Source: Tepidisphaeraceae bacterium | GTDB lineage: Bacteria; Planctomycetota; Phycisphaerae; Tepidisphaerales; Tepidisphaeraceae | NCBI GenBank assembly: GCA_035998445.1 | Contig: DASYHQ010000013.1 | Span: forward strand, 248,001-312,000 | DNA length: 64,000 nucleotides | Direction: 5' to 3' | Shown here: piece after piece, positions 13,167-24,464 of the stretch | Layout: each line of letters opens with the position of its first letter | Numbering within the stretch: position 1 is the stretch's first letter | Notes under the pieces: model-generated | What the model was told of the DNA's origin: nothing | Seen by the model: only the letters and a program-made list of their open reading frames with translations | Database searches by the model: none | Position numbers and translations under genes: made by a program

Positions 13167-14042
13167 TTAATCGCGCCGGAACCAAGCGTTATCGCTCGGG
13201 CCAACGAAGCCCAACAGCGCTTGCGCGTTGTCGGCCCCGTAGACGTTGGAGCCGTACGTGAACGACATCGGCTCGGCCGTCACGTGACCGTCGGCCCAGC
13301 AGATGTTAGCGCGCTTGCGATGGCGGAAATGGATGGACGGCGACGTGGTGTTGCCGAACGCGTCGAGCGGGGGCTCGACGTACGAGTATTCGATCAAAGC
13401 CGGGAGGGCCATGGCCGTGTCTGCGAAGGCCACCTTTGTCGCCGGCTGCCTGATCATTGTGACCTTCGCAGGCACGTTGCCCACGCGGCGTTCGAATTCC
13501 GAGATGGACAACGACATGATGAGCGTGCCCAGACCGGGCACGCCGGTGCCGCTGCCGAACGCGCCGGCGTTATAGCCGTATCCTCCACAGGCCAATTCGA
13601 ATCCGATCGATTCGTCCGGCGGTTCGAAACTTGGACAGCGCTTGATCTGCGGCGTCTGCAGGAACGGTTTCAGCGGTCCACGATCGAATTCAAACGGGGC
13701 CGAATCATTCGGCCGAACGCCGTGCCAGCGGTGAAGATTGCCACTGATCAAGTCGAAGTGACCGGGCGGCCAGTAGTTGTTAAAGCTGCCCGCATACAGC
13801 AGTGACGCCGTGTAGATCTGCCGCAGGTTGCTCTGGCAGACCGTCCGGCTGGCCGCCTGCCGGGCCGCCGACAGTGATGGGAGCAGGATGCCGATCAGCA
13901 CGGCGATGATGCCGATGACGACCAGCAGCTCGACCAGCGTAAAGCCCCTGGCGCGCGACGTTATCCAACGCGCGTCACGGGAACGGGAACCGGGTTTTGG
14001 CGATGAGCCGGGTCGCATGCGGTTCCCACAGAAGGTGTTCAT
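13167..14042 (-). CDS. Type II/IV pseudopilin-like protein (DUF1559-like)
   Basis: A prepilin leader is present: positively charged N-terminus, then the cleavage/methylation motif [18 protein letters not shown], where processing is expected after the Gly. The C-terminal part carries NICWADGHV, the H-X9-DG-type ending common in planctomycete DUF1559 proteins. Start choice is uncertain: ATG 14042 sits 9 nt after the purine-rich end of repeat B1, and ATG 14018 (after GTGGGAACCGC) is also possible. It lies on the same strand 200 nt downstream of the B12-riboswitch unit, with a repeat pair between, so whether it belongs to that transcript is unclear. Confidence 0.8.
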
Positions 14043-14244: not shown

Positions 14245-15009
14245 CTAGTCCAAGCGACGGCGGCGTTGCAACAACAGCCCCGCCGCCAGCAGGAACGCCA
14301 GCGACGACGGTTCCGGGACGGCGACCGTGACGAGGTTGTCGATGGCGGCGTAGAGCGGCGTGTTGATGTAGTCCACTCCGCCGTAGGTCGAGCGGTCCGA
14401 CGAAGCCCACTCGACGTCGAACGACACGGCGTTCCCCAGGGGCGTCAGGTCGACCAGTTCCCACGTGGCAACGATGTAGTCCTGGCTGTTGTCCTCGAAC
14501 GTGTAGTCGGCCAATCTAAACGCGACCGAGCCGGTCGTCCCGCCGGTGGCGTTCGCGCCGGCGTAACCGACGAATCTTACGTCGAAGTAGTCGGGGTCGT
14601 TGCCGGTATCGCCTCCGAACTTCTTGGCAAACTGGTCACCCTGCTGCAAGGACTTAGCGGTAAGCGTCGTGTTGGTGACCCGTACCGACGCAAGCGCCTG
14701 GCCCGCGGGCAGGTTGACGTGCCCGGTGTTGTAGACGATCGCGTAGTTGCTGCTGCCGTTGAACCCAATACCCGTAAAGGCGGAGTACTCGTTCTCATAA
14801 CCACCTGTACTCGCGTCGGTATCGTCCGAGTACGTCCAGCCGTTGTACGTGCCCCCGGAGAACGTCATCCCCTCGCTGACGAAACCCGTCGTTCCCACGC
14901 CGTACTCCGGCCGCTGCGTGGGATTGAGTTCTTCAAAGTCATAAGTGGTCGCCGAGGCCACCGAAGCGGACAAAGCGAAAATGGTTGAAATGATTGCGCG
15001 AAGTTTCAT
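14245..15009 (-). CDS. PEP-CTERM protein with DUF4465 domain
   Basis: This is a 254-residue secreted protein. The signal peptide is residues 1-20 (MKLRAIISTIFALSASVASA). A DUF4465-like domain follows: SEGMTFSGGTYNGWTYSDDTDASTGGYENEYSA, then ASVRVTNTTLTAKSLQQGDQFAKKFGG, GSVAFRLADYTFEDNSQDYIVATWELVDLTPLG and a SSDRS..GG..TPLYAAIDNL ending. The C-terminus is a sorting signal, VPEPSSLAFLLAAGLLLQRRRR. It starts 42 nt after the upstream PEP-CTERM stop and shares its cobalamin-riboswitch leader. In Bacteroidota, DUF4465-type surface proteins occur in B12-uptake loci; that is recalled knowledge that I cannot check here. A ligand-binding role at the surface is inferred. Confidence 0.88.
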   Translation of the reverse strand: MKLRAIISTIFALSASVASATTYDFEELNPTQRPEYGVGTTGFVSEGMTFSGGTYNGWTYSDDTDASTGGYENEYSAFTGIGFNGSSNYAIVYNTGHVNLPAGQALASVRVTNTTLTAKSLQQGDQFAKKFGGDTGNDPDYFDVRFVGYAGANATGGTTGSVAFRLADYTFEDNSQDYIVATWELVDLTPLGNAVSFDVEWASSDRSTYGGVDYINTPLYAAIDNLVTVAVPEPSSLAFLLAAGLLLQRRRRLD

Positions 15010-15051
15010 GCTGTTCCTTCTGTTCCATCACTTGTTGAATCGGACCGCAAA

Positions 15052-15882
15052 CTAACGGCTCCGGCGGCGCAAGGCCGCCACGGCGCCGATCGACAGCAGC
15101 GCGATCGCGCTCGGTTCCGGCACCGCGTTGATCACGCCAATGCCCTGGCCGACAGGCAGGCGGAAATCAAAGCCGCCGGTGCCAGTGGTGAGCCAGTTGT
15201 CGAGGATCGGATTGTTCTGGCTGTCCCTAAACGCACCGTTGCCAGGAACGTCGATCAGCTTCACGAACTGGACGTCGTTCAGGTCGACCGCGCCGCTCAA
15301 CACGAGCGCGTTCGTCGTCAGATCGGCCAGGTCGAACGGCGTCCCGAACCCGTTGGCGTGCTTGCCGGCGAGGTTGTGGATGTTCGTTGCGTCGAATCCG
15401 GCGTAGCCTTGGCCGAACGTGCCGTTGAACGTGGTGTTGGTGCTGATCGATGCAAAGCGCGCAAAGTCGGTGCCGTTGCTCGACACCTCCACGTACGCCA
15501 GCTCGGCGAAGACGAACGGCGCACTGGGAAACAGAATGCCATTCTCGAACACCGCGAAATCGGCCCCGCTGCCGTTGCGGATGCCGGTGGGGAACTGCAC
15601 GGTCAGGTAGCCGGGCGACGCGCCGTTGGCGATCTCGGTGGCGTCCAGATCGCCAAGGCTGTTGAAGCCGGTGGTGCTGATGCTCGTGCTGCCGCGCGGC
15701 GCGAACTGCGTGCGGGCCGCGTCGATGGAATCGGCCCACTCCACAAACCGCGCGCTGGCGGCCGGGATGGCGGCGTCGATGGCATTTGAGGTATCGGTGG
15801 GACCGGAATAGATGCCCGCGAGAGCGGGCGAAACGATAGGAATGGCCGCGATTACCGCAACCGGGACGAACTTGCGCATCAT
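15052..15882 (-). CDS. Riboswitch-controlled PEP-CTERM surface protein
   Basis: This 276-residue secreted protein starts at ATG 15882, with AGGAG 7 nt upstream. Its signal peptide is MMRKFVPVAVIAAIPIVSPALA. The mature part has beta-rich motifs seen in 'cell surface protein' families (FAVFENGILFPSAPFVFAELAYVEVSSNGTDF and DVQFVKLIDV) and ends in VPEPSAIALLSIGAVAALRRRSR, a PEP-CTERM sorting signal. It is the first gene after a cobalamin riboswitch (about 260 nt leader with a terminator-like hairpin), so expression should rise when B12 is scarce. A cobalamin-binding or surface-capture function is inferred from regulation, not from a known B12 motif. Confidence 0.85.
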   Translation of the reverse strand: MMRKFVPVAVIAAIPIVSPALAGIYSGPTDTSNAIDAAIPAASARFVEWADSIDAARTQFAPRGSTSISTTGFNSLGDLDATEIANGASPGYLTVQFPTGIRNGSGADFAVFENGILFPSAPFVFAELAYVEVSSNGTDFARFASISTNTTFNGTFGQGYAGFDATNIHNLAGKHANGFGTPFDLADLTTNALVLSGAVDLNDVQFVKLIDVPGNGAFRDSQNNPILDNWLTTGTGGFDFRLPVGQGIGVINAVPEPSAIALLSIGAVAALRRRSR

Positions 15883-15918
15883 GCGCTCTCTCCTGCGCCG
15901 ACTCGCGCGGCGCAAACG

Positions 15919-15966
15919 AAAACCCCCGGCCGTCGCGCGTGCCAGTGGCACGGGAGAAACCGGGGG
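15919..15966 (-). terminator. Terminator-like hairpin in the riboswitch leader
   Basis: On the minus strand ACCCCCGG pairs with CCGGGGGT around an inner GTGCCA/TGGCAC hairpin and is followed by TTTTCGTTT. It lies between the riboswitch and the start codon, about 36 nt before the ATG, as expected of an expression platform for transcription attenuation. Pairing to an antiterminator was not worked out. Confidence 0.6.
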
Positions 15967-16143
15967 TCCGAGAGCACGGGATTGCTGCGTTGGGTCGCCC
16001 ACCCATGACGGTGGTAAACGCGACGATGACGCTGCCTGCGTGGATCAGGGGCCCGGGGTCCCAAAGCATAACGGCCAATGGCCGCGATGCCTTTTCGCGA
16101 GGACGGTCCGAACGGGCTCACCGCACCAAGCGGCGAGCCGAAA

Positions 16144-16328
16144 CGCAGGCAGGTCTTCTGACTCGGGGCCCACCCGGCCGCCTTCCCACCGGTCCGTCGC
16201 AATCGCGATCGACCGGCAGTGGCAAAATGGCCGGGCAGTAATACAGCTGCCCCATACAGCGGCGCGTCCGTGCCGGATTCTCACCGGCTTCCCTTTGACG
16301 CCTCGGCTTCCACCGAAACATCAGGCAT
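16144..16328 (-). promoter_or_regulatory. Cobalamin (adenosylcobalamin-type) riboswitch
   Basis: Reading the minus strand, this region shows the aptamer landmarks in order: GTTTCGGTGG start, AAAGGGAAGCCGGTGAGAAT, CCGGCACGGACGCGCCGCTGT, the conserved GCCACTG box, GGGAAGG, and the 3' end GAGTCAGAAGACCTGCCTGC. This matches the classical cobalamin riboswitch closely over about 185 nt. It precedes the PEP-CTERM gene at 15052-15882. Cobalamin riboswitches normally repress B12 uptake or synthesis genes when B12 is abundant. Confidence 0.95.
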
Positions 16329-16354
16329 AACGCCGCCTGCGTTAACTCGAGGGC

Positions 16355-16382
16355 ACAATACAGCGGGACCTGGAAGATTCAA
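16355..16382 (-). promoter_or_regulatory. Candidate sigma-70 promoter for the riboswitch unit
   Basis: On the minus strand TTGAAT (16377-16382) and TATTGT (16355-16360) are separated by 16 nt, close to the sigma-70 consensus. They would place transcription start just before the riboswitch aptamer. Found by eye only. Confidence 0.4.
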
Positions 16383-16812: not shown

Positions 16813-16962
16813 GATGCGACTCCCTTTGGTAGCGCGGTGGTAGCGACCTCAGCCGGGAAGTGTAGCACAAAAGTGTTTTCGCGCGTGTGTACGCAGCGGT
16901 GACGCAGCGCGGCCTCGCATTCGTTGACGAGACGCGGCATCGCGACGAGGCTACCGGGTCTC

Positions 16963-18978
16963 ATGCATAACCCAACGCTGTGGATCGCGCTCCTTCTGCT
17001 GGCGGCACTTTGGATGGTGGCGCTACCCGTGACAAGCGCGCGGGCGGATGACATGGCCGTGGTGCGCGATCGATTGATCGCAGCAATGGTCCCCGCGTCG
17101 CCGGATGCGAAAGCGCGCGCCATCAAAGCGGCGACGGCACGTGCCGAATCGCAGCAGGCGGATGGAACGTGGAAGGACGTTGGGTACGACGATGCCCGGC
17201 GCAGCGGTTGGCGCACGAGCGATCACCTCACGCACGCTCGCACGATGGCGATCGGCCATCGCCTCAGCGGCGACGCAGAGTTGCGCGACAAAACGCTGAA
17301 AGCGTTCGCGTGGTGGCTTGCCAACGATCCGAAGAACTCGAACTGGTGGCACAACGAGATCGGCGTGCCACGGCTGATCGGCGAAACTGCGCTGCTGCTC
17401 GGCGACGCCCTGCCCGCCGACGTGCTCCCGGGCATCGTCCGCATCCTGCGTCGAAACGATTGGGCCCAGCACACGGGCCAGAACCTGGTGTGGGGCTGCG
17501 GCATTCAGGTGCTGCGCGGCTTGCTTGAGTCGGACCAGACCGCGGTGGCCGAGGCCTTCTCGCGCATGCACACCGAGGTGCGCGTGGGCGAGCCGCAGGG
17601 CGAGGGCATCATGCCCGATCGCAGCTTCCATCAGCATGGGTCGCTGTTGTACTCAGGCGGTTACGGTCGGGCGTTCACGTCCGACGTCGGCCAGTTCATC
17701 GCAGTGGGTTGGGGGACGGCGTTCGCGGCGCCGGCGGAGCCGCTGAACGTGTTTTTGTCGTACCTGCTGGATGGTCAGCAATGGATGATCCGCGGCGTGG
17801 CCATGGACCACTCGGTGGACGGTCGCGAGATCGTTCGCCCACGCCGTTCGTCGCGGTCGCACCCTTCGCCCACGCTTTCGAGATTCGGCGGCCTGGCGAC
17901 AGAACTGGCGGCGCTCGGCGCGCCGCGCACCGACGAGTTGCGCACCTTCGCCGATCGACTTGCCGGCAAGGGCGAGCCGCTGGTGGGCAACCGCACGTTC
18001 TGGTGTTCCGATTACGTCGTCCACCATCGGCCGGACTTCTTCATGTCGATCCGCATGTTCTCGAGCCGCACGATTAACGCGGAACTGGTGAACGACGAGG
18101 GCAAGCGCATGCGCCACGTCGCCAACGGCTGCACGATGCTGTACCGCCGGGGCAATGAGTATGAGGGCATCTTTCCCGCGTGGGATTGGAACCGCGTCCC
18201 CGGCACCACCGCGGCCGCAATCGATTTTGCGAAGAACGCCAAGCCTCGTGTCGCAACGACGGCGAACTTCGTCGGCGCGGTGTCGAACGGACGTTTCGGC
18301 GCGGCGGCGCAGGAGATCGATCACGATGAGCTATCGGCCCGCAAGTTCTGGCTGATGTTCGATGATGGCTTCGCCGCACTTGGCGCGGGCATCAGTTCGA
18401 CAGCGGATGGCACGGTTACCACCAGCGTAAACCAGTGCCGTCTTGTCGGTGACCTGCAGCGGAGTGAAACCAACGTCACGCATGATGGGTTCACTTACGT
18501 CTTTCCAGAGGGCCAGGAGCACCAATTGCGCCAGGGAGCGCAGAGTGGCCGCTGGTCAGATATCGGTGCTGACGTGGCCGCCAAACCGGTGACGATGGAC
18601 GTGTTCAACCTTTCCATCGATCACGGCGTTCGGCCCACCGACGCCAGCTACGCCTACAGCGTGTTCACCGGTGCCGATCGCTCAACCGAGGTGGTGGTGC
18701 TGAGCAACACGCCTGAGCTGCAGGCCGTCACGCATCGCCGCGACCGTGTGACGGCGGCGGCGTTCTGGAAAGCGGGACGGTTCGCGGTCGGTGGCCGGAC
18801 CGTCGAGGTCGACCAGCCCTGCCTGGTGCTCATCGAGAAGCAAGAGCAAGGGGGCGATTCGATCAGCGTGTCAAATCCGCGCAACACCGAACTTACGGTC
18901 ACGGTGACGATCGACGGCACGCCCCACCGCTTTGAATTGCCCGACGGTCCGATGGCCGGTTCGAGCGTGACGCGATGA
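16963..18978 (+). CDS. Polysaccharide lyase family 8 (hyaluronate/chondroitin/xanthan lyase-like)
   Basis: This secreted lyase of 671 residues starts at ATG 16963 and has a signal peptide (hydrophobic LWIALLLLAALWMVALP, cleavage near ARA). A TTG 13 codons upstream would lengthen the N-terminus. An (alpha/alpha) toroid N-terminal domain carries the catalytic Asn in NWWHNEIGVP and the His/Tyr pair in DRSFHQHGSLLYSGGYGRAF. The middle beta-sandwich has the typical FSSRTINAELVN and DWNRVPGTT. PL8 enzymes cleave uronic-acid polysaccharides by beta-elimination, and the exact polymer is not predictable from the sequence. It is probably extracellular or periplasmic. Confidence 0.9.
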   Translation: MHNPTLWIALLLLAALWMVALPVTSARADDMAVVRDRLIAAMVPASPDAKARAIKAATARAESQQADGTWKDVGYDDARRSGWRTSDHLTHARTMAIGHRLSGDAELRDKTLKAFAWWLANDPKNSNWWHNEIGVPRLIGETALLLGDALPADVLPGIVRILRRNDWAQHTGQNLVWGCGIQVLRGLLESDQTAVAEAFSRMHTEVRVGEPQGEGIMPDRSFHQHGSLLYSGGYGRAFTSDVGQFIAVGWGTAFAAPAEPLNVFLSYLLDGQQWMIRGVAMDHSVDGREIVRPRRSSRSHPSPTLSRFGGLATELAALGAPRTDELRTFADRLAGKGEPLVGNRTFWCSDYVVHHRPDFFMSIRMFSSRTINAELVNDEGKRMRHVANGCTMLYRRGNEYEGIFPAWDWNRVPGTTAAAIDFAKNAKPRVATTANFVGAVSNGRFGAAAQEIDHDELSARKFWLMFDDGFAALGAGISSTADGTVTTSVNQCRLVGDLQRSETNVTHDGFTYVFPEGQEHQLRQGAQSGRWSDIGADVAAKPVTMDVFNLSIDHGVRPTDASYAYSVFTGADRSTEVVVLSNTPELQAVTHRRDRVTAAAFWKAGRFAVGGRTVEVDQPCLVLIEKQEQGGDSISVSNPRNTELTVTVTIDGTPHRFELPDGPMAGSSVTR

Positions 18979-21819: not shown

Positions 21820-23577
21820 TTAGTTCGTTTCTCGATCGCTGACGTTCGAGGGCACGAACAGGTCGATTGGCTTGTTGGCCCAGCTGATGCGCGACGGCAG
21901 CAACTGAATCGCGGCGTCGGGGCTCCAGGAGACGAATTCCGTCGGTGGCTCGTTCAACCGATCGACCGCCTTCACGATCGCGTCGAATTCGGCAACGGCC
22001 GGTGGCACCGGGCGGTCGACCGGCTGCAACAACAGCACCCAGCAGAACAGATCGACCGGTGGCATGCTGTACGGTGCCGGCTCATCGAAGATCGCCATTC
22101 GGGTTCTGCCACGGTCGGCCCACATCTCCAGCGTGCGGGCCGCCTCGGTGCGCGTGTCGCTGCGGCCGGTGTCACGCGCGAAGTTCTTGATGTAGATCGC
22201 CCCCGCCGCCACGACCCAGGCCACCAGCGCGATGCCCGCAATGCGACGCGTGCGCGGCAGTTTGATCCAGTTCCGCAGGCCCCCGAGCGCTGCGATCAGC
22301 AGCGCCACGCAGGGCAGGATTGCAAACCGGCCGTACTCGCCCGGCTTGCCGGCCCCCAGCAGCACGAACTGGGCCAGCACCAGAAGCGCCGGCGCCGCCA
22401 GCAGGATCGCCAGCGCCTTGCGTGGAAAATCGACCGCAGCGCCCGGCGTGCGGGCCATGCGCAGCACCCCAACCACGGCCGCAATGCCACCGATCACCGC
22501 CACGGCAAGGCTCGATCCCTCGGCCAGCAGGTCGATCCCGTTGAACAGGCCCCGCACCACCTGCCCCACCTGATAGAAGTTGCCGTGGGCGGTCATGTTC
22601 GAACTGAGCACGCTGGAACCCTGCATCGCGTTCATCACGACGTACGGGTTGCTGATGCCGTAGACCAACGCGCCCGCCCCCAATGCCAGCACGAGGTGGC
22701 CGACGCGCCGCATGAGTGACTGCGGCCGCAGCGCGATCATGAGCAGCAGGATGACGATGCCCGGCAGCGAGAGCAGCACCATCCCCGTGGCCGCACCCCA
22801 AAGTGCGCCGGCAGCGATCGCGCGGCGCGACGAGCCGTTGCGCACGTACGCCGCCGCGGCGAGCGACGTCCACAGCAGCAGCACCGCGCCGGCCAGGTGG
22901 GGCTTGCCCTCGTGGGCCATGTTCACCACCACCGGCATGCAGGCGAACGCGATCCCACCGAGCGACACGGTCAGCAGCGAACCGCTCATCTTTCTCAGGA
23001 TCAGCATGACCGCCGCCACGCCAGCCAGGCCCCACAGTGCCGAGTAGGCGCGCATCACGATGTAGAACCGGCCGAACTGTTCGGGATGATCGAGATAGTG
23101 CGCGACGTCGCCGCGCACCGTCAGCAGACCCATTTCTTCCCCGAACTTCAGCAGCGCGCCGATCGGGTAGACCCACAGCCCGCCGTACTGGTACATGCGC
23201 GGGTCGAGCTGCATCTGTCCCGGGCGCATCTGGCCCAACGCGCGCAGCGTCAGCATTTCGTCGGGCTGGTGCGAGTACAAGCGGTACCGCTGGACGATCT
23301 CGGCACGTTGGGCGTCGGTCGCGTTGACGACCACCGGCGCATCGCGGTTGGCGAGCGGGTTGACGTCATGATCGCTGGCCTGGCCGGCGGCGTCCCAGCC
23401 GCCGGTGAGCGCGATGATCTCGGCGCCGGTCCACGGCTCGCGCGAGGCGAACAGGAACTCGTCGTCGGCACGCGAGGGCAGTCCCCAATTGATGCCGATC
23501 GCGAACGCGCAGATCGCCACCAGGAACGGCGCGACCAAGGCAAGGACGACGCGTGTTTTACTGACGTCGTCGTTCAT
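21820..23577 (-). CDS. GT39/ArnT-like polytopic membrane protein
   Basis: This is a 585-residue integral membrane protein with an N-terminal helix (VVLALVAPFLVAICAFAIGINWGLPSR), a first periplasmic loop with acidic residues (RADDEFLF) and roughly ten further helices. The plan resembles dolichyl-phosphate-mannose/lipid-linked glycosyltransferases (PMT/ArnT, GT-C fold). The sugar donor and target are unknown. The start ATG overlaps the pseudopilin stop (ATGA), indicating translational coupling. The family assignment is moderate because the GT-C motif is weak by eye. Confidence 0.65.
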   Translation of the reverse strand: MNDDVSKTRVVLALVAPFLVAICAFAIGINWGLPSRADDEFLFASREPWTGAEIIALTGGWDAAGQASDHDVNPLANRDAPVVVNATDAQRAEIVQRYRLYSHQPDEMLTLRALGQMRPGQMQLDPRMYQYGGLWVYPIGALLKFGEEMGLLTVRGDVAHYLDHPEQFGRFYIVMRAYSALWGLAGVAAVMLILRKMSGSLLTVSLGGIAFACMPVVVNMAHEGKPHLAGAVLLLWTSLAAAAYVRNGSSRRAIAAGALWGAATGMVLLSLPGIVILLLMIALRPQSLMRRVGHLVLALGAGALVYGISNPYVVMNAMQGSSVLSSNMTAHGNFYQVGQVVRGLFNGIDLLAEGSSLAVAVIGGIAAVVGVLRMARTPGAAVDFPRKALAILLAAPALLVLAQFVLLGAGKPGEYGRFAILPCVALLIAALGGLRNWIKLPRTRRIAGIALVAWVVAAGAIYIKNFARDTGRSDTRTEAARTLEMWADRGRTRMAIFDEPAPYSMPPVDLFCWVLLLQPVDRPVPPAVAEFDAIVKAVDRLNEPPTEFVSWSPDAAIQLLPSRISWANKPIDLFVPSNVSDRETN

Positions 23578-24464
23578 TGGGGTTCGGTTGCCGTCGGCAC
23601 GAGGACACTGTCGGAATACCACGCCGGCCCCACGCCGGTGCTCAGCACGCCGGGCAGCGTCGGCGGCACAACCGCGCCGGGCGGCACGGGTGAGGCCTGC
23701 AGCGCGGTATAAATGTTGTCATTGTTCACGCCGCAAAACTGGGTCAGCGACCACTCGACGTGGCCGTCGCCAAAAAGCACGTTCTGTCCCGCTTGGCCGT
23801 GGTTGAGCGAGTTGCCCATCGACCGTAACGCTGGCCCATCTTCATAGCGCACGGTGGTGACGTTGTTGGAACCGGCGGTGCCCGGGTTCATGTCGGCCAT
23901 CAGGGCGAACTCGGCCCGTACGCGGTCGCTGTTGAGGTGATACTCGGGCAGCGACGAGAACGGCGTGGCGTACGAGTAGGTTAACGCATCGCGCGAGCTG
24001 AAGTTCCCCAGCCGTGGGTTGAAGCTGGCGGCCGCGGCGGCGCGGTCGACGCTGGGGCAGATGAACAGCTTCGGGTCGGCCATGCCACCGCGCACCAGCA
24101 GGTAGAGCGACGCCGTCACGTCGTCGGCGGCAACGGCAGAGCCTTCGGCGAACGGATCGGTCTCGACGTTGCCACCGGTGAAGGCGGTCCAACCGGGCTT
24201 GTCAACGTCGTGGCGAACCGACGGATACTCATTCCGGTTCTCGCGCCCGTACTGGTCCAGCGCCAACTTGATCAGGCGAAAGTTCTCGGCACAGCGCACG
24301 CGGTTGTTCATCTCGCGCACGTTCAGCACGTACGGCACGAAGATGCTGGCCAGGATCCCGAGGATCGCCAGGATCACCACCGCTTCCAACAACGTGAACG
24401 CCCGCCGCCCACCATGGCGAGCGTAGCGCGACGACATATCCTGCATCCGCAACCGCTCCTTCAC
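23574..24464 (-). CDS. Pseudopilin-like protein (prepilin N-terminal methylation motif)
   Basis: This is a 296-residue protein with the prepilin leader RRAFTLLEAVVILAILGILASIFVPYVLNVREMN. The processing site would be after the Ala preceding Phe, with the conserved Glu at +5. The C-terminal half contains QNVLFGDGHVEWSLTQF, the DUF1559-like ending. It overlaps rlmN upstream (GTGA) and the GT39-like gene downstream (ATGA), so all three are translationally coupled. Such proteins are numerous in planctomycetes and their cargo is mostly unknown. Confidence 0.82.
   Translation of the reverse strand: MKERLRMQDMSSRYARHGGRRAFTLLEAVVILAILGILASIFVPYVLNVREMNNRVRCAENFRLIKLALDQYGRENRNEYPSVRHDVDKPGWTAFTGGNVETDPFAEGSAVAADDVTASLYLLVRGGMADPKLFICPSVDRAAAAASFNPRLGNFSSRDALTYSYATPFSSLPEYHLNSDRVRAEFALMADMNPGTAGSNNVTTVRYEDGPALRSMGNSLNHGQAGQNVLFGDGHVEWSLTQFCGVNNDNIYTALQASPVPPGAVVPPTLPGVLSTGVGPAWYSDSVLVPTATEPQ

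Follow-up and report, generated by a model that had tools for sequence, protein, structure and literature searches.

A probable B12-repressed operon for surface cobalamin capture in a planctomycete, with BtuH-like and BtuJ-like proteins and a pseudopilin partner

A cobalamin riboswitch and the genes behind it in a Tepidisphaeraceae bacterium very likely constitute a B12-repressed operon for surface cobalamin capture, in a host that is probably a B12 auxotroph. The window, the whole stretch of DNA analysed, is 64,000 nt long (assembly GCA_035998445.1, contig DASYHQ010000013.1, positions 248,001–312,000 of the forward strand). The host genome is 5.84 Mb and 95.5% complete, so the gene absences given below are provisional. 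Scarcity of B12, or of a related corrinoid, would leave the aptamer unoccupied and the operon expressed. With ample B12, the occupied aptamer would silence the operon, either at the ribosome site or through the terminator hairpin. Proteins 1 and 2 would be exported, fixed in place by exosortase acting on their PEP-CTERM tails, and would bind B12 with a BtuH-like domain (protein 1) and a BtuJ/DUF4465-like domain (protein 2). The H-X9-DG pseudopilin (protein 3) probably aids the display or export of these two proteins, or the passage of B12 across the outer membrane. Uptake would be completed by an ABC transporter of the btuFCD type whose genes lie elsewhere. Surface B12 capture under riboswitch control was proposed in an earlier note on this DNA, and it is the reading best supported by the sequences and predicted models, with B12 binding as a prediction. 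The features are listed in Table 1.

Table 1. Features of the riboswitch-led operon (positions in the window)
Feature	Position	Strand	Details
Cobalamin riboswitch aptamer (RF00174), complete	16131..16332	-	81.1 bits, E 2.1e-18
Candidate L13-type loop motif GUCCUCGCG (tentative)	16096..16104	-	directly 3' of the aptamer
Candidate intrinsic terminator	15914..15970	-	stem ACCCCCGG...CCGGGGG around a nested hairpin, followed by UUUUCGUUU; -30 to -33 kcal/mol
Shine-Dalgarno AGGAGAG of gene 1	15888..15894	-	read directly from the sequence
Protein 1, 276 aa	15052..15882	-	signal peptide, BtuH-like beta-sandwich, PEP-CTERM tail
BtuH-like beta-sandwich domain	about residues 44-252 of protein 1		invariant DFAVFEN motif, N114
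Protein 2, 254 aa	14245..15009	-	signal peptide, DUF4465/BtuJ-like domain, PEP-CTERM tail
Protein 3	13167..14042	-	prepilin-type pseudopilin, C-terminal H-X9-DG motif; frame open upstream to 14156

The minus-strand cobalamin aptamer, recognized in the earlier note from the letters alone, is matched by the RF00174 covariance model with a score well over the gathering score of 31.5 bits. The match spans model positions 1–189, the full aptamer, and a genome-wide search found no second match. The terminator-like hairpin described after the aptamer is also present, and it is unusually strong. Its stem lies at 15967–15923, and the UUUUCGUUU tail reaches to 15914 and ends about 32 nt before the ATG. 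Within the 64 kb, searched on both strands, no exact 7-bp GC-rich stem other than the pair ACCCCCGG/CCGGGGG is followed by TTTT, and the folding of the leader beats 200 of 200 shuffles (z -5.5). The terminator scan does not report the main hairpin because its loop exceeds the length allowed by the scan. A sigma-70 scan gave no promoter. The tentative motif GUCCUCGCG could kiss the sequence GGACGCG of L5. A (C)CUCGCG(A) loop is seen 3' of the aptamer in several related leaders (loci L003, L004, L024, L036, L050, L053 and L081), and in some relatives it is near the start codon. The shut-off could be transcriptional here, through the terminator, and translational in relatives with the (C)CUCGCG(A) loop.

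Genes 1 and 2 are on the same strand with 42 nt between them, and the signal peptides of both products are readable in the sequence. Family models match both proteins as PEP-CTERM proteins and the second as DUF4465, in agreement with what the earlier note had read, and, as it also stated, neither a B12-synthesis gene nor a TonB receptor is found directly beside the two genes. Upstream of the operon is a SnoaL-like gene, followed by a gene for a polysaccharide lyase of family 8 (16924–18978) that adjoins the operon in the divergent orientation. Between genes 2 and 3, a REP-like palindrome of the type CCTCTCCCGG...CCGGGAGAGG occurs twice (14224–14199 and 14085–14055). These palindromes could influence read-through into the pseudopilin gene.

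The PEP-CTERM tail that the earlier note read in protein 1 matches its family model with 23.1 bits; the note left the rest of the protein unexplained and missed its likeness to BtuH. No Pfam domain other than PEP-CTERM is found in protein 1, and searches of the PDB with protein 1 alone or with its single relatives gave no relative and nothing for the BtuH-like domain, respectively. BtuH is reached only when the family is used as a profile or the fold is searched. The model predicted from 55 family members (pLDDT 87.6, pTM 0.83) is closest to the BtuGH domain (8blw_B, residues 392–660; Z 11.9) and the BtuH2 domain (7biz_A, residues 318–592; Z 11.8). The third match is the CBM32 of AlyQ (Z 7.6), which the BtuH paper describes as a modest structural neighbour of BtuH (PMC8941943). 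Only the two BtuH domains are clearly above the background. The family profile was built on a core-domain alignment, since dockerin tails had misled the profile made from an earlier alignment, A1. Against the entire PDB it hits one chain, 8blw_B, within the BtuH domain (E 1.8e-4), and the profile-profile comparison of the family with BtuH by hhalign gives a probability of 91%. In the reverse search, a profile from two BtuH fragments was run against 4955 ORFs, and all 40 matches at E<=0.1 belong to the protein 1 family. The matches are weak but exclusive in both directions.

Asn399 of BtuH2 contacts the B12 phosphate (PMC8941943). It falls in the motif GNAF, with a numbering offset of 100 that we infer, and aligns with N114 in the DFAVFEN motif of protein 1, where Asn is conserved in 55 of 55 family members. 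This comparison covered Asn399; the other contacts of BtuH2 are His476, Tyr510, Trp511 and Trp577 (corrin ring), and BtuH also has bound metals. The two-way profile searches and the aligned Asn support the fold match, and protein 1 can be considered as carrying a predicted BtuH-like domain. The family is seen in Planctomycetota, Verrucomicrobiota, Lentisphaerota, Cyanobacteria, Myxococcota, Desulfobacterota, Betaproteobacteria, Bacteroidota, Spirochaetota and Paenibacillus. Of the 24 family members in alignment A1, which come from the window and loci L003–L031, 19 give weak matches to the LIC_13355 lipoprotein family model of NCBIfam (best E 5.5e-6), a hint that the domain family has a lipoprotein branch.

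Protein 2 matches DUF4465 with 131.7 bits against a cut-off of 25, and sequence matches link protein 2 to the solved DUF4465 structures 9hmu, 9qpm, 9fct and 4jqr. Its PEP-CTERM score is slightly under the Pfam cut-off and over that of NCBIfam. The predicted model (pLDDT 90.8) has the augmented beta-jellyroll fold and superposes on cyanocobalamin-bound BtuJ1 with Z 26.0 and an rmsd of 2.0 over 199 residues. It scores Z 23.8 against 9hmu, and the best match to an unrelated fold has Z 9.2. The connection between DUF4465 and B12 loci of Bacteroidota, which the earlier note brought up, is in the literature: BtuJ1 and BtuJ2 are DUF4465 proteins that bind B12 (PMC12751083), as do eight divergent DUF4465 proteins, one of them from Mucisphaera calidilacus, a species of Phycisphaerae (PMC13398666). 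Protein 2 keeps the HI-loop motif (N/G)TPxY with the B12-binding Tyr, as NTPLY with Y220. At the site of the DE-helix Tyr (Y146 of BtuJ1), which contacts B12 in BtuJ1 and is a common but not defining contact in DUF4465, protein 2 has Leu116. Tyr is present in 88 of the 98 relatives with a residue there. Because of this replacement, protein 2 is an unusual member of DUF4465 and its affinity for B12 may be reduced. Its HI-loop also has an insertion, at least residues 213–214, that is absent from 101 relatives.

The linkage of the two genes is conserved. Among 397 genomes of the class Phycisphaerae, 73 contain the protein 1 family, 64 contain DUF4465, and 57 contain both. The two are adjacent on the same strand in 55 genomes, that is, in 55 of the 64 with DUF4465 and 55 of the 57 with both. 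Four DUF4465-bearing genomes seemingly without protein 1 have a more BtuH-like version adjoining DUF4465. A cobalamin riboswitch is found at 18 of the 20 pair loci scanned in the class. From a second collection covering several phyla, 50 loci were picked solely by similarity to protein 1; scanned with Rfam, 36–38 of them show a same-strand cobalamin riboswitch upstream of the protein 1 gene. DUF4465 and the protein 1 domain are fused in one ORF at 8 of 80 loci. These counts far exceed chance, though they are not phylogenetically independent, owing to shared ancestry. It is very improbable that the riboswitch has no control of these genes and is associated with them by accident. The 248 nt between the aptamer and the ATG would be compatible with such an accident, but dozens of genomes from several phyla show the same gene order.

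In Bacteroidota and Betaproteobacteria, the protein 1 family gene is found with TonB receptors, and in Bacteroidota also with DUF5074 (BtuG-like) proteins. These neighbours bear on whether the operon could have a B12-regulated purpose other than uptake, such as storing B12 or keeping it from competitors, or binding some other ligand at the surface. An uptake step that relies on PEP-CTERM anchoring would be unusual, and the folds of proteins 1 and 2 also resemble carbohydrate-binding modules. However, the matches to carbohydrate modules are far below those to B12-binders, and relatives share operons with TonB receptors and BtuG-like proteins, so that a purpose other than uptake seems quite improbable.

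Several loci show other arrangements. In Paenibacillus sp. 598K (L129:7387–9515), an AdoCbl riboswitch lies directly 5' of a gene for a protein with a BtuH-like domain, DUF4430, a transcobalamin-type domain, and three S-layer anchors. In Rhodopirellula solitaria (L131:7701–13466), a protein of 1922 residues with one BtuH-like and three DUF4465 domains is encoded behind a cobalamin riboswitch, and a pseudopilin frame directly precedes it. A Lentisphaerales locus (L091:4964–9032) contains two DUF4465 domains fused to a BtuH-like domain, and it is the sole locus seen with both a pseudopilin and a TonB receptor. A B12 locus of Bacteroidales has a BtuH-like gene and a TonB receptor beside the gene of a 432-residue protein (L140:6018–7313) whose only known domain is a T9SS tail.

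The genome encodes a complete MetH, the B12-dependent methionine synthase, and one btuFCD-like operon, while the B12-independent MetE family, CbiC and CobS are not found in it. The host probably depends on imported B12 on account of these presences and absences, and B12 auxotrophy is the simplest reading of the gene content. One exosortase is encoded. The single TonB receptor found in the genome is on a different contig from the operon and not near a riboswitch. Genes for a sensor histidine kinase and for a GGDEF/EAL regulator precede it (L159:1018–8814).

The two PEP-CTERM genes of the earlier note stand, but a third conserved partner, the pseudopilin gene, was overlooked; it lies beyond positions 14245–16382, to which that note was confined. 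Protein 3 has the prepilin N-terminal motif (TIGR02532, 24.4 versus 16.3 bits) and matches GspG-type pseudopilins. Its C-terminal H-X9-DG is read in the sequence, TIGR04294 itself not being among the reported matches. Its subfamily has the signatures RWHG, FExGCGGYGYN, EYSFAEPP and SIHFRH, and the other pseudopilin of the window (23574–24464) matches it weakly. In most PVC loci, the subfamily adjoins protein 1 or DUF4465, often overlapping the preceding gene by a few bases. It is present at 23 of 29 loci in the class set. Among the 80 loci, it is adjacent at 31 of the 44 PVC loci versus 3 of the 36 others, and TonB receptors, searched for with few seed sequences as queries, are nearby at 3 PVC loci versus 20 of the others. 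One locus has both. Judged by gene order, protein 3 is a conserved operon partner of the B12-binder genes.

Two roles can be considered for protein 3. It may well, though short of probably, act in export and display only, as a dedicated minor pseudopilin assisting type II secretion in bringing B12-binders with PEP-CTERM or dockerin tails to the surface, and B12 would then enter via the unlinked TonB receptor. The resemblance to GspG-type pseudopilins is consistent with this role, and so is the occurrence of one TonB receptor and one btuFCD-like operon elsewhere in the genome. However, that receptor sits among signalling genes away from the riboswitch, and TonB-bearing phyla export the same domains without the pseudopilin gene. 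The other role, which we regard as unlikely, is TonB-independent uptake. Here, the pseudopilin would be the moving part of a machine like a type II secretion system or type IV pilus that replaces BtuB and carries either the surface proteins with their B12 or B12 alone across the outer membrane. The opposite distributions of pseudopilin and TonB receptors between PVC and other loci, the frequent gene overlaps, and the distinctness of the subfamily from the window's other pseudopilin would fit such a machine. Against it, the operon is without a secretion or pilus ATPase, and the TonB counts depend on the few seeds. Besides, PVC genomes contain dozens of DUF1559 paralogs with no known transport role: 74 of these related pilin-like proteins in R. 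baltica (PMC2754498) and 68 in P. limnophila (PMC10632474) have no known function.

That DUF4465 is a B12-binder and frequently has a C-terminal sorting tail is already known (PMC12751083). The B12-binding domain of BtuH was reported to be without known structural homologs (PMC8941943). To our knowledge, three things are absent from the literature searched: the assignment of the protein 1 family to a widely distributed BtuH-like domain, the paired operon of planctomycetes, and the pseudopilin that accompanies it. A search for cobalamin riboswitches together with PEP-CTERM proteins found nothing relevant. The relative of BtuH occurs in many phyla, where its gene mostly follows a B12 riboswitch and where BtuJ-like domains adjoin it or are fused to it, and the Bacteroides-style capture kit therefore looks ancient and widespread. 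Unnamed surface proteins of planctomycetes also gain a testable function. The operon also raises the question of how B12 crosses the outer membrane of PVC bacteria without a linked TonB receptor. If a TonB-independent pseudopilin system were true, a branch of DUF1559/H-X9-DG, a large orphan family, would have its first function.

The closest known counterpart of protein 1 is BtuH, the C-terminal domain of BtuH2 and BtuGH of B. thetaiotaomicron. They share the predicted fold, the two-way profile match, the phosphate-contact Asn, and the co-occurrence with a BtuJ-like protein behind a cobalamin riboswitch. Unlike BtuH, protein 1 has no PKD or propeller domains, and the identity in the structural alignment is 16–20%. 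Its family has PEP-CTERM or dockerin tails, extends over many phyla, and has no Pfam family. Protein 2 resembles BtuJ1, BtuJ2 and DUF4465 (PF14717, IPR027828) in its above-cut-off family match, its fold and its HI-loop NTPxY, and it is likewise predicted to be exported and riboswitch-controlled. It differs from BtuJ1 and BtuJ2 in its PEP-CTERM anchor, where they are lipoproteins, in Leu116, in the HI-loop insertion, and in the lack of an adjacent btuB. Protein 3 shares the prepilin N-terminus and the H-X9-DG motif with the H-X9-DG/DUF1559 pilin-like proteins of PVC bacteria (PF07596, TIGR04294), but belongs to a distinct subfamily tied to B12-binder genes. As a whole, the operon is similar to the btu loci of Bacteroides (btuB, btuG, btuH, btuJ, btuK), which are also riboswitch-controlled sets of surface B12-binders. 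In contrast to those loci, it has no adjacent TonB receptor (btuB) or BtuG, and it includes a pseudopilin.
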